This document shows, one piece after another, positions 17,604 to 60,285 of a stretch of DNA of 64,000 nucleotides; the first letter of the stretch is position 1, and each line of letters begins with the position of its first letter. The notes beneath the pieces were generated by a model. That model saw only the letters and a program-made list of their open reading frames with translations, had not been told where the DNA came from and searched no databases. The position numbers and the translations under genes are program-made. The stretch is from Myxococcales bacterium (GTDB lineage: Bacteria > Myxococcota_A > Polyangia > Polyangiales > Houyiibacteriaceae): the NCBI GenBank assembly GCA_019637115.1, contig JAHBWH010000009.1, positions 1-64,000 of the forward strand, written 5' to 3'.

Positions 17604-17734
17604 GGTACACGAAGAACGTTTCGCGCGGTCTACTCGCGCTGCTCGAGCAGGCCCGCGGCTCACGCGAGGGCACACGAAGCACGTTTCGCGCGGTCTACTC
17701 GCGCTGCTCGAGCAGGCCCGCGGGCGGCTCACGT
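17602..17734. repeat. Tandem duplication of a gene 3' end, two ~65-bp copies
   Basis: Copy 1 (17602-17665) and copy 2 (17666-17734) share over 55 nearly identical bases, including TTTCGCGCGGTCTACTCGCG. Copy 2 encodes the last residues (PPAGLLEQRE) and stop of the minus-strand Lgt-like gene; copy 1 lies downstream of that stop, against the histidine kinase stop. Confidence 0.8.
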
Positions 17735-29050: not shown

Positions 29051-29150
29051 GCAGCGCCGTCGGCGCTCCGGTCGCCAGGGTGGTCGTCATCGTGGTCGCC
29101 AACGTGGTGGTGGTCGTGGCTGTCGTGGTCTTGCGCGGTCACGGCGCGCG

Positions 29151-29338
29151 CGTCGACAGGCCGCCCGGCTGGACGGCCGCGCCGCGCCAGCCATGGTGAC
29201 GCGGCGTCGCGACCCCAACGTCCCTGCACGGCGACACTTACGCGCGTCGACAGGCCGCCCGGCTGGACGGCCGCGCCGCGCCAGCCATGGTAACGCGGCG
29301 TCGCGACCCCAACGTCCCTGCACGGCGACGCTTGCGCG
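29151..29338. repeat. 94-bp tandem repeat, two copies
   Basis: Two nearly identical 94-bp units (29151-29244 and 29245-29338), each with CGTCGACAGGCCGCCCGGCT. They occupy most of the 311-bp gap between the protease and the heme-oxygenase-like gene. The preceding 29070-29140 is a degenerate GTGGTC-rich stretch. No gene is seen in the gap. Confidence 0.85.
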
Positions 29339-30258: not shown

Positions 30259-30401
30259 GTGCCCCCAACCCGAAGTTCGTTCCGGGTTGCCGTGGATGAT
30301 CGGCGTGGAGGTCGTTTGCCGCGTTGGACAGGCCGAAGCCTATTCGAGGAGGTCGGCGAGCGAGATCCGCGTCGAGAGCCGCGGATACCCGGAACGAATT
30401 C
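30259..30401. repeat. Palindromic dispersed element, copy A
   Basis: 143 bp starting GTGCCCCCAACCCGAAGTTC, with interior GAGGAGGTCGGCGAGCGAGA. Its left arm is the exact reverse complement of the right arm of copy C over about 27 nt. The right arm is cut short after GGATACCCGGAACGAATTC, and the stop codon of the gene at 30400-31431 lies at that edge. Confidence 0.85.
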
Positions 30402-41358: not shown

Positions 41359-42129
41359 TCAGGGGCGGCGATGCGCGAAGAGGTTCAGCGCCAACGCGTG
41401 CACCCACTCGTCGCGGTCGCGGCGCAGGTGCACGAGGAGGTAGCCGACTTCGAGCCGGGAGCTCGCGCCGATCGCGATCGAGGCGCCAGCGAAGAGCCGG
41501 TTCTGGTCGTATCCGCGGCGGGCGCCCCACTCCGTGCCGTTGAAGCCGACGAAGAGCTCGTCCCAGAGCACGGCGCCGACCGCGCCGCGCGTCCAGCCGA
41601 GCCGCACGAATTGGCGGAGCCGATGCCCCACCCCCTCGCCCGGCCCGAAGCGCTGCTCGGTCCGCGTGCGCGACTGGAGGCTCACCCCGCGGCCGAGCTC
41701 TCCCGCGACGATCGCCTGCTGCCAGCTTCGGTGCTCGTCGCGCCGGCTCGCGTTCGAGTCGTCGAAGAAGGGAACCCACGCGTAGCCCGCGTGCAGGCTC
41801 AGCCACGGCTTGGCCCGGAATCCCACGGCCGGCCGAAGGATGAAGAGCGTCCCGGCGTCGCCGCGCCGCAGGTGGGTGTCGAGCCAGAGGCTCGCGCTCG
41901 GGGCCTCTTGGCCGAGGTCGGCGCTAGCGATCACCCCAGCCCAGACGGCGAGGTCGCGGGTGGACTCGGGGGCCTGCGCCGCACCCACGCTGGCGGTGAG
42001 CGAGGAGGTCAGGAGAGCGAGGAGTGCCCCCAACCCGAAGCCCGTTCGAGGAGGTCGGCGAGCGAGATCCGCTCCCTTGGCCGTGGATACCCGGAACGAA
42101 GTTCGGGTTGGGGGCGCTGAGATGCGCAT
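41359..42129 (-). CDS. DUF2490-family outer-membrane protein with repeat-derived N-terminus
   Basis: 256 residues. After the signal core LLALLTSSLTASVGAAQA the body shows the DUF2490 pattern: EHRSWQQAIVAGELGRGVSLQSRTRTEQRF, HRLRQFVRLGW, LWDELFVGFNG and YDQNRLFAGASIAI, as in outer-membrane barrel proteins of this family. The N-terminus MRISAPPTRTSFRVST... up to GLGA is encoded by palindromic element copy B. Removing the element would leave MRIS directly joined to the hydrophobic core, a normal signal peptide, so the element appears to have inserted in frame just after the start. Confidence 0.75.
   Translation of the reverse strand: MRISAPPTRTSFRVSTAKGADLARRPPRTGFGLGALLALLTSSLTASVGAAQAPESTRDLAVWAGVIASADLGQEAPSASLWLDTHLRRGDAGTLFILRPAVGFRAKPWLSLHAGYAWVPFFDDSNASRRDEHRSWQQAIVAGELGRGVSLQSRTRTEQRFGPGEGVGHRLRQFVRLGWTRGAVGAVLWDELFVGFNGTEWGARRGYDQNRLFAGASIAIGASSRLEVGYLLVHLRRDRDEWVHALALNLFAHRRP
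42024..42117. repeat. Palindromic dispersed element, copy B (internally deleted)
   Basis: 94 bp with both arms (GTGCCCCCAACCCGAAG ... ACGAAGTTCGGGTTGGGGGC) but missing about 55 bp of the left half. The deletion joins two GAAG-containing sites present in the full copies. It lies within the 5' coding region of the DUF2490 gene. Confidence 0.85.
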
Positions 42130-42294
42130 GCCTTGGGCCAAAGCATCGGGCGTGCCGCTCGAATTCGCCGAGAACGAAGCTCCTACGCCCGCCGCGTCGC
42201 ACCCGTCATGTCGCAGCGTCTCGCTCGAACGTCGCGCCGTGTGTCAGGAAGCGCCCGGCGAAGAACCCCCTTCCGGGCGCTGACCGAGCGGTCG

Positions 42295-54239: not shown

Positions 54240-55151
54240 TCACGGCGTCGCGTAGCGGCGCCACGCGCGCTCGGAGGGCGAGCGGACGAAGATGGCCGCG
54301 AGGCCCAGCCCCCCGACCGCGGTGGTGCCCGTCGCGATCGCCGCGCCGAGGTGCGTGTCGATGCGCGAGCGTGCCGTGAAGCCGATGAGCACGGCCGTGG
54401 CCACGAGGTTCAGGGCGCCGAAGACGCCGCCGAAGATGCGGCGGCGACGATCGCGCGCGGCGGCGGCTTCGAGGGCGCGCTCGCTGGCCTCGAAGGCCGT
54501 CGGCGTCAGGCCGGCGGCGCGTGCGGCGACGAAGTCGTCGTAGTTCTGGCGCGCGTCGCGCGGGCCGCGCGGGCGCGCGAACCCTCGGTAGGCGATCACG
54601 GCGAGCGTCGCCGCTCCGACGAGGCAGCCGACGCCGAGGACCAGGTCGACCGTGCTGGGGTTCCGCTCGAGCAGGTGGTCGAACGCGCAATAGGCCTCGA
54701 AGACGGCGACGACCAGCGCGCGCTGGGCGGCGAGGAACGAGACCGGATCGAAGGCGAGCGCGGCGTACTCGAGCGAGTACGCGAGGCGGTCGACGTCGGT
54801 GGAGGGGAGCGTGAGGCGGACGGGGCTGGAGTGTCGCGCCGTGTCGACGTCCGAGCCCACGCCCAAGACCGCGTCCGAGCCCGTGGAGACGGTGTCCGAG
54901 CCCGCTTCCGAGACCGCGTGGGAGACCGTGGAGACGGTGTCCGAGCCCGCCGCGTGGGAGACCGTGGAGACGGTGTCCGAGCCCGCCGCGTGGGAGACCG
55001 TGGAGACGGTGTCCGAGCCCGCGTCCGAGGCCGCGTCCGTGGTTTCCGGGTCGGGAACGACCCCGTCCTGCGCGTACGCCGTGGGGGTCGACAGCGCCAG
55101 CGCGAGGAAGAGGCTCACGCTTCTAGCCCGAAGCTCGTTCCGGGTTGCCAT
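54240..55151 (-). CDS. Exported membrane protein with tandem-repeat linker and repeat-derived start
   Basis: 303 residues from ATG 55151: signal core SVSLFLALALSTPTAYAQ, a linker of three 12-residue SDTVSTVSHAAG repeats, two transmembrane segments at about 175-195 and 250-300, and helical parts between. No family is recognised. The chosen ATG lies inside palindromic element copy C; the frame continues through the whole element to ATG 55298 (MALASRAS), so the original start was probably there and the element inserted in frame between it and the hydrophobic core. Confidence 0.6.
   Translation of the reverse strand: MATRNELRARSVSLFLALALSTPTAYAQDGVVPDPETTDAASDAGSDTVSTVSHAAGSDTVSTVSHAAGSDTVSTVSHAVSEAGSDTVSTGSDAVLGVGSDVDTARHSSPVRLTLPSTDVDRLAYSLEYAALAFDPVSFLAAQRALVVAVFEAYCAFDHLLERNPSTVDLVLGVGCLVGAATLAVIAYRGFARPRGPRDARQNYDDFVAARAAGLTPTAFEASERALEAAAARDRRRRIFGGVFGALNLVATAVLIGFTARSRIDTHLGAAIATGTTAVGGLGLAAIFVRSPSERAWRRYATP
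54882..55020. repeat. 36-bp tandem repeat in coding sequence
   Basis: Three near-perfect 36-bp units starting GTGGGAGACCGTGGAGACGG at 54918, 54954 and 54990 with a partial unit before, in frame in the linker of the minus-strand gene. Confidence 0.85.
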
Positions 55152-55276
55152 GGATGATCGGCATGCAGATCGTTTGCCGCGCGGACGAAGGACGGGCCAA
55201 AGCCGACTCGAGGTCGGCGAGCAAGATCCGCAGCGAGGGCCGCGGATCCCCGGAACGAACTTCGGGTTGGGGGCAC
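55126..55276. repeat. Palindromic dispersed element, copy C (full length)
   Basis: 151 bp from AGCCCGAAGCTCGTTCCGGG to CCCGGAACGAACTTCGGGTT then GGGGGCAC. Orientation equals the other copies, upstream of and within the 5' coding region of the minus-strand gene at 54240-55151. Confidence 0.9.
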
Positions 55277-55448
55277 TTGCGCGGCTCGCGAGGGCCATGA
55301 CGCGCTCGGTACGCGCCGACCGCCCCCGCGTCAACCGCATGCGTCCCGCGGTCCGCTCCGCTGGCCGCTCGCGAGCGGGGCAGAACCTCCCTCAGCGCGC
55401 GAGGATCATCGTCGTCTCGGCTTCGCCAGCAGCGGCGGCGCGCGGGTA

Positions 55449-58403: not shown

Positions 58404-59081
58404 TCAGCGCACCGTTCGGGTCGCCGTGAGGATCCATCGTCCGAGGTTCACCTCATCGTGGCGCTCGTCGCAGGGGAGGTCGACGTGGTAGCCGAGTCGC
58501 GCCGTGCCCCCAACCCCTGCGGGACGGTCCACCGTCTCGTCCTGTCGATACCGGTGCGCGCCGATCTCGAAACGGAGCGTGTCCGTGCGGGCGGCGAGCA
58601 GAGGCTGCCGGGTCAACAAGCCGCTCGCCGAGGGCACGATGGCGGCCACCGGTGCGATCGACGTCACGAAGAACGTCCCTTGCGACTCCGCCTCCGTCGG
58701 CCCGTCCAGCTCTCCTTCGCACGCCCCCAGCGCATCTCGCCACGCCTGACCACGAGAGTCGGTTCCGACGCGCAGGACTCGGTCATATCCGCCGTTCACG
58801 AAGGCCATGAGCGACCAGACGAGGACGATGACTGGAAGGCAGATGACCGCCTCGGCGAAGACACCCCCGCGCTCACAGTCCAAGAGCCCCTCTCTGGAGC
58901 CCACACCCCGAAGCTCGTTCCGGGTTGCCGTCGATGCCCGAGGACGTTCGCCGCGCCGACGGAGGACTGGCCGAGGCCGATTCGAGGAGGTCGGCGAGCG
59001 AGATTCGCGTCGGCGACCTCGAATACCCGGAGCGGACTTCGGGTCGGGGGTACCAAGTTCGCTTTTGCCGTCGCGCTCCAT
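58404..59081 (-). CDS. TadE-like pseudopilin with in-frame repeat insertion
   Basis: 225 residues. GGAGG 8 nt before ATG 59081 supports this start (MERDGKSELG). The next ~50 residues (TPDPKSAPGIRG ... TATRNELRG) are encoded by palindromic element copy D, then the TadE-type segment GSREGLLDCERGGVFAEAVICLPVIVLVWSLMAFV with its Gly before a Glu-containing hydrophobic helix, followed by a periplasmic domain. The normal TadE N-terminus is short, so the element has enlarged the cytosolic leader without breaking the frame. It is the last gene of the Tad-like operon. Confidence 0.7.
   Translation of the reverse strand: MERDGKSELGTPDPKSAPGIRGRRRESRSPTSSNRPRPVLRRRGERPRASTATRNELRGVGSREGLLDCERGGVFAEAVICLPVIVLVWSLMAFVNGGYDRVLRVGTDSRGQAWRDALGACEGELDGPTEAESQGTFFVTSIAPVAAIVPSASGLLTRQPLLAARTDTLRFEIGAHRYRQDETVDRPAGVGGTARLGYHVDLPCDERHDEVNLGRWILTATRTVR
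58905..59053. repeat. Palindromic dispersed element, copy D (full length)
   Basis: 149 bp from CACCCCGAAGCTCGTTCCGG to GGAGCGGACTTCGGGTCGGG, in the coding region of the TadE-like gene; interior GAGGAGGTCGGCGAGCGAGA is shared with the other copies. Confidence 0.9.
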
Positions 59082-59100
59082 CTCGTGCACCTCCGCGAGC

Positions 59101-60285
59101 TCAGTGGATGAATGCCTGCTCGAGCCCACCGCAACCGGGCACGCCCGGTGGGCAGAGCCCGCCCCCACCAGCGCGAATGCGTCGTAGGCGTGCGCGCCAC
59201 TGCATGCGCCAGGTCCAGAGCCCGCGATCGACGTCACCGTCGAAGTAGTACTCAGCCTGCGCGACGGCGAGGTCCGTCCCGTCGCGAAGCAAGTCCGCCG
59301 TCCGCCCCAGCCCGCCGCTCTCGTCGGGCTGACCCCACGTCAACAAGCTCACGCGCTCCTGGTTGGGGTCGAGCGGCATCGCGTCTGCGCCGGCGCGCGC
59401 GATCACACGGAGCTGAAACTCGGAGCCGCCCATCCGCACTCCTTCGCGCACACGCTGCGTTCGACCGTCGACGTCCTCGCGCACCATCGGGCACGCGAGC
59501 CACGTCAGCGGGACACCCAGGCCGGCGTTCACGTAGCGCTCGGCGCCGCAGCTCGAGGCGATTCGGCGGGCCTCGCGAACGGCGAAGTCGGCGGTGACGA
59601 GCAGCGGCATGTCCCCTGCTCCTCCCGACGGGCCGTTGAACGAGAGCACCTCGTCGCACGCGCGGCTCGGGTCTTCGTCCTCGATGGGGATGGCGCCGAC
59701 GAGCGCGATCGCCTCGCTCACGGGGGGCGCGTACCGGGTGGTCGTGATGTCGTGCGCCGCCCCGATCGCGGCGAGCTGCGTCGCCCTCGCGAGATCGCGA
59801 GCCGCCGATTGCGCGTTCTGCGCGACGTCCCTCGCCACGCTCCGCTTCGAGTCCGCGTTGCCGCACGCGTCAGGGATGCCGATCAGCGTCAAGCAGACCG
59901 CCGCGAGGCAGGCACCGGGGTTGAACGGACCGCATTCGCGCGCGGCGGCTCCCGCCGCTGCCGCGACGAGGAAGATCGCCGCTTGGGCGGCGACGCCGAC
60001 CGCGAAGATCGAGGCCACCGTCATGTTGAGGAGCGCGATCACGTTCATCGCGCGCGCGTGGAGCAGCGCCCCGCCGTAGGCCGCGGTGTCCGCGGCGTCC
60101 TGCATCCGCTCGCGGTAGGTGATCGTCTCCCCGAGACCAGCGACGTAATAGAGCAATCCGACGAGGATCGTCGCCATGAAGATCCCGAGCAGCATCATGG
60201 CGCCGCGCTCGTCCGCGACGAGCGCGCGCGGCTCTCTGCGTCCATCGCCGCTGGTGCGTTCAGCCACGCGAGCGTCGTCATTCAT
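59101..60285 (-). CDS. TadG-like Flp pilus assembly protein
   Basis: 394 residues: short cytosolic N-terminus, DERGAMMLLGIFMATILVGLLYYV (the TadE/TadG-type N-terminal helix), then AADTAAYGGALLHARAMNVIALLN, as found in putative Flp pilus assembly TadG-like proteins. A large extracytoplasmic domain follows. It overlaps the upstream TadE gene by 8 nt. The C-terminus ends GCGGLEQAFIH. It is thought to be a minor pilus or secretion component at the inner membrane. Confidence 0.75.
   Translation of the reverse strand: MNDDARVAERTSGDGRREPRALVADERGAMMLLGIFMATILVGLLYYVAGLGETITYRERMQDAADTAAYGGALLHARAMNVIALLNMTVASIFAVGVAAQAAIFLVAAAAGAAARECGPFNPGACLAAVCLTLIGIPDACGNADSKRSVARDVAQNAQSAARDLARATQLAAIGAAHDITTTRYAPPVSEAIALVGAIPIEDEDPSRACDEVLSFNGPSGGAGDMPLLVTADFAVREARRIASSCGAERYVNAGLGVPLTWLACPMVREDVDGRTQRVREGVRMGGSEFQLRVIARAGADAMPLDPNQERVSLLTWGQPDESGGLGRTADLLRDGTDLAVAQAEYYFDGDVDRGLWTWRMQWRARLRRIRAGGGGLCPPGVPGCGGLEQAFIH

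Follow-up and report, generated by a model that had tools for sequence, protein, structure and literature searches.

We report a palindromic element in the genome of a Myxococcales bacterium, present in about 95 copies (a lower bound, the copies having been gathered by sequence searches), with some 20 copies lying in frame in genes of unrelated Pfam families. In nearly all of these in-frame copies, listed partly by eye, the element follows the ancestral start codon and precedes the hydrophobic core of a signal peptide or of an N-terminal membrane anchor. Judged from its sequence, it is probably a non-autonomous, MITE-like palindrome of Myxococcota that is tolerated in genes mainly in the n-region of signal peptides. 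Copies A to D fall within the window, the whole stretch of DNA that was analysed (64,000 nucleotides; assembly GCA_019637115.1, contig JAHBWH010000009.1, positions 1 to 64,000).

A sequence-only reading had placed copy D in frame inside a TadE-like gene, and this proved correct. The minus-strand open reading frame 58404-59237 is open across the entire copy, and the ATG at 59081 is preceded by GCGGAGGTGCACGAG, which provides GGAGG at 8-nt spacing. The host gene (58404-59081, minus strand, 225 aa) encodes MERDGKSELG, then the element-coded TPDPKSAPGIRGRRRESRSPTSSNRPRPVLRRRGERPRASTATRNELRG, then VGSREGLLDCERGGVFAEAVICLPVIVLVW; the insertion adds a net of about 53 codons, none of them a stop. Based on BLAST to the consensus and on the alignment of copies, the element itself occupies about 58898-59052 (minus strand); the span first given for it, 58905-59081, also took in the native codons. 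The core of copy D measures 155 bp, that is 161 bp minus a 6-bp deletion, and is 82-84% like the family consensus. Copy D is not due to chance, because it matches other genomic copies with E values down to 3e-38; used as a query, it returned at least 43 alignments, even with the scoring limited to 40 candidates.

Comparison with homologues, which the reading had named as a check, showed that the insertion in D is not ancestral. Homologues from the sister genome, from family members and from a paralogous operon of the source genome all lack the element. They start close behind the upstream gene, at the same place as the D gene, and carry a short variable tail of a few to about 48 residues ahead of a conserved LLRDERGG...EAVI helix. 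Given this shared start and the absence of the element, the insert in D lies in the variable tail that precedes the membrane helix at the N-terminus. Initiation behind the element is the less likely reading. The family name was only partly upheld. The D host protein itself has no match to Pfam TadE, and its homologue L070 matches weakly and below the cut-off (E 0.019), whereas neighbouring genes match TadE (7e-7) and Tad (0.01). We therefore call the protein TadE-like, on the basis of its helix motif, the weak L070 match and the neighbouring genes.

Copies B and C of the window are both signal-peptide cases. Copy C (about 55118-55275, minus strand) carries a 3-bp deletion and precedes a signal-peptide core in frame, as MALASRA-element-RSVSLFLALALSTPTAYAQ. 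Its host reading frame (54240-55340, minus strand) has ATGs before the element, one of them 21 nt away, and copy C is read in the same frame as D (GIRG...ATRNELR), as the earlier reading had claimed. The same gene contains a 36-bp tandem repeat, SDTVSTVSHAAG, at 54869-55036, after the signal peptide, which is likely to vary in length. Copy B (42025-42116, minus strand) is internally deleted to 92 bp with the frame preserved, and is found between MRIS and LGALLALLTSSLTASVGAAQ (MRIS-element-LGALLALLTSSLTASVGAAQA as listed among the examples) in the gene of an exported protein (41359-42132, minus strand) whose homologue in genome G009 (L188) is free of the insert. Copy A (30260-30400, plus strand) has a degraded right end, and no gene was found reading through it. 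The window also holds recent-looking near-tandem duplications, at 29147-29334 (94 bp, 97% identity) and 17604-17723 (55 bp, 96% identity).

Across host genes the layout recurs: the start codon leads into a handful of residues, frequently basic ones, after which come the in-frame element and the signal-peptide core. Examples are MKKLVRQ-element-WLGCVAVLGASVVAHAQ in a phosphate-porin family protein (Pfam E 1.5e-25), MRTSLT-element-LSALLLIAFGC in SCO1, MATGTLSACGA-element-CARRRALALWAIALALPASARAD in NosD (E 1e-42) and MRRAGILA-element-LAVLVATIGYVEPVVADA in a PEGA protein, and two further cases (L229, L236) were present among copies fetched later. The NosD homologue of the sister genome reads MATRTLIALVLVASFAPRARAEILRP with no element, and the DNA around the start codon is much alike in the filled gene and this homologue. 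Homologues free of the element were also found for SCO1, the L011 and L124 lipoproteins, the L025 transglutaminase-like protein and the copy B host. Given these homologues, the element is an insertion and not an ancestral part of the proteins. There is one clear internal case, a sigma-54 regulator (L122) whose AAA and C-terminal parts are separated by 30 additional residues absent from three homologues. L132 was rejected as a coding-through case, as the start of its gene probably lies beyond the element. This copy and seven others (L023, L045, L129, L138, L235, L238 and L239) immediately precede genes for lipoproteins or exported proteins in which the start codon comes after the element, a hint that the 5' ends of such genes are favoured.

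The family extends beyond the window. A search with a 20-base core gave about 65 near matches, the remainder of its 118 hits being at noise level, while the left arm gave 45 matches and the terminus 90, each against 0 in the control. After fetching and de-duplication the working set comprised 104 copies, 74 from the source genome and 30 from relatives; a later set of 128 places included short fragments. The element occurs in the source genome, in far fewer copies in the sister genome (MAG Prado145, Myxococcota), and in more diverged form in other genomes of the same family. Copies are mainly intergenic, with the genic minority concentrated at protein N-termini. Neither plasmid relatives (plasmid search) nor an Rfam family (Rfam search) were found for it.

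The consensus is a near-complete palindrome of 169 nt including flanking CTAG (-134.6 kcal/mol, z -14.9), and the core is exactly 161 bp in most copies that have both ends. The same 4-mer occurs on both sides in 7/29 copies against 2.9 expected (p 0.01), the match being imperfect in most copies. Matching 4-mers are CTAG, CCAG and CTCG, and the pairs CCAG/CCAG and CTCG/CTCG are not palindromes. An apparent 4-bp target duplication brings the 161-bp core to a net 165 bp of inserted DNA, which is a multiple of three (55 codons). Four of the six frames of the consensus core are free of stops and three are seen used in genes, about equally, so it is not the peptide itself that is conserved. In L023 (463-630, reverse strand) and L015 (1489-1654) the outer stem is changed on both arms with pairing kept, pointing to copying between the arms or to selection for pairing; L023 also has a second partial arm after the element. 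The half-length copies L040, L045, L051, L122, L124 and L131 all break off near position 84 of the consensus and may thus represent a distinct half-element.

The element is short, has terminal inverted repeats and contains no transposase gene, as MITEs do. Searches for a partner transposase recognised none and turned up only a longer repeat that shares the terminus. This repeat of about 530 bp begins with that terminus (TGCCCCCAACCCGAAGTTCGTTCC) and occurs in the source genome at L230 (1499-2028, contig C422) and L231 (1491-2007, C201). No transposase was recognised in either, and the repeat is possibly a relative of the mobilising element. A REP/RAYT origin was rejected, since PF01797 (Y1 transposase) had no match in the genome while the controls were positive.

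To evaluate the positional bias, we identified signal peptides with a simple rule rather than with SignalP. Because this rule accepts 52% of window genes if more than one start may be used, all claims rest on matched random controls. A first loose test was dropped, as it accepted 19/104 copies but 6.8% of random positions too. Under a strict rule (an in-frame ATG within 48 nt, non-coding DNA before the ATG, and a hydrophobic core and cleavage motif after the element) 13/104 copies qualified, against 0.67% of 30,000 random positions (P 4e-13). Among the 128 places there were 16 in-frame N-terminal placements where 3.06 were expected (P 8e-8), and 12 of the 16 involved signal peptides compared with 18% in the control (P 1e-6); of the remainder, L032 narrowly misses the signal-peptide rule, and in D the element is followed by a membrane helix. 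An internal control pointed the same way. For 21 copies beside a signal-peptide core, an ATG at most 50 nt beyond the element was in frame in 13, against 2 and 1 in the other frames, and the element was open in the needed frame in 20/21. Among diverged copies (<93% identity) the frame was broken in 1/18 in-frame copies and 24/53 others (P 0.002), with equal mean divergence from the consensus in both groups. This retention argues that ribosomes still cross the element, although the test is partly circular, given that a shifted copy would count as 'other'.

These data bear on how the pattern arose. Neutral tolerance alone may fall short of the signal-peptide share, since the strict rule is satisfied by 13/104 copies but by 0.67% of random positions, with non-coding DNA forming about 12% of the window. 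It is unlikely that signal-peptide insertions are favoured because an arginine-rich product, from any of three frames, or a hairpin behind the start tunes translation or export. Signal-peptide copies are several times commoner, relative to other copies, than random positions predict, and old copies keep the frame, both of which speak for such an advantage; yet with three frames in use no one peptide is conserved, divergence from the consensus is the same as in other copies, and flank comparison found no insertion common to the source genome and its relatives. Somewhat less doubtful is a preference of the machinery for the 5' ends of such genes, with loss elsewhere in genes doing the rest. The copies just upstream of lipoprotein genes and the CNNG-type target speak for this, but no transposase was found to supply the preference, and cytosolic genes likewise have upstream copies (L005, L015, L094, L157).

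A different possibility is that translation of the host genes now begins within the element or behind it, leaving the in-frame ATGs before it as remnants. Some copies do supply or precede a start, as with an ATG within copy C and a TTG at +13 in L009. As a general account this is nevertheless improbable, slightly more so than a favoured product, given that the sole nearby in-frame start of L011 lies before the element, that diverged copies keep the frame and that the upstream ATG of D has a good Shine-Dalgarno sequence. Finally, the idea that the TadE-like protein ancestrally contained the element-coded segment can be dismissed with near certainty: it is refuted by the D homologues, and the same DNA turns up in three reading frames among unrelated genes and, for the most part, in intergenic DNA.

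We accordingly favour tolerated insertion of a MITE-like palindrome. The element would be moved by a transposase that prefers CTAG-like sites, and its net length of 165 bp would preserve the frame. Genic insertions would survive where 30-55 extra residues are harmless. Signal-peptide n-regions would be foremost among such places, being flexible in length and removed by signal peptidase, which leaves the mature protein unchanged. In D, the extra residues would form a longer tail ahead of the membrane helix. Translation across the element is what we infer, and start codons inside or after it are possible in some genes. A 5'-end preference of the machinery, or usefulness of some insertions, may also contribute. 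More tentatively, and with rather less than even confidence, we suggest that the signal peptide is the main genic niche, the element repeatedly splitting n- and h-regions through target preference, selection or both and equipping exported proteins with long cleavable leaders that it encodes.

The closest known systems are the Rickettsia palindromic elements (RPEs), dispersed palindromes of about 100-150 bp that are tolerated in frame in unrelated protein genes (PMC2229807, PMC10969869). The sequence-only reading had drawn this comparison from in-frame, tolerated insertion, which recurs here at about 20 loci. In these dispersed copies of a 161-bp palindrome the likeness holds, but the element is found in Myxococcota rather than Rickettsia, has a larger intergenic share, and its genic copies are mostly N-terminal, splitting signal peptides. 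Nor is there the single shared frame that the reading had raised as a check, three being used about equally. The element thus appears to work like an RPE, a likening by behaviour and not by established family membership. Like RPEs, repeat units of enterobacteria are translated in frame as parts of genes, and one repeat of Yersinia contributes to a predicted signal peptide (PMC2229807, PMC2759123, PMC10969869). The MITE-like RU-1/ERIC, RU-2/YPAL and RU-3 repeats (PMC2759123) similarly have frames fused to genes, but there one repeat supplies part of a signal peptide, whereas here existing ones are recurrently split between n- and h-region, with clear statistical support. Bacterial MITEs such as Correia/NEMIS and RUP (PMC2229807) share terminal inverted repeats and the lack of their own transposase, and have a short target duplication, which is apparent here in part of the copies; as differences, many of them have TA at their ends and RUP has stops in all frames. 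Our searches of the open-access literature turned up no repeat described as splitting signal peptides recurrently.

Most known protein-coding palindromes of this type come from Rickettsia and Wolbachia. With some 20 cases, insert-free homologues and a clear positional rule, a second lineage makes the tolerance of genes for selfish DNA testable. For annotation, the host genes carry unusually long leaders and their starts are easily miscalled. The pattern suggests how selfish DNA can live in genes at little cost, by occupying residues that the cell discards.
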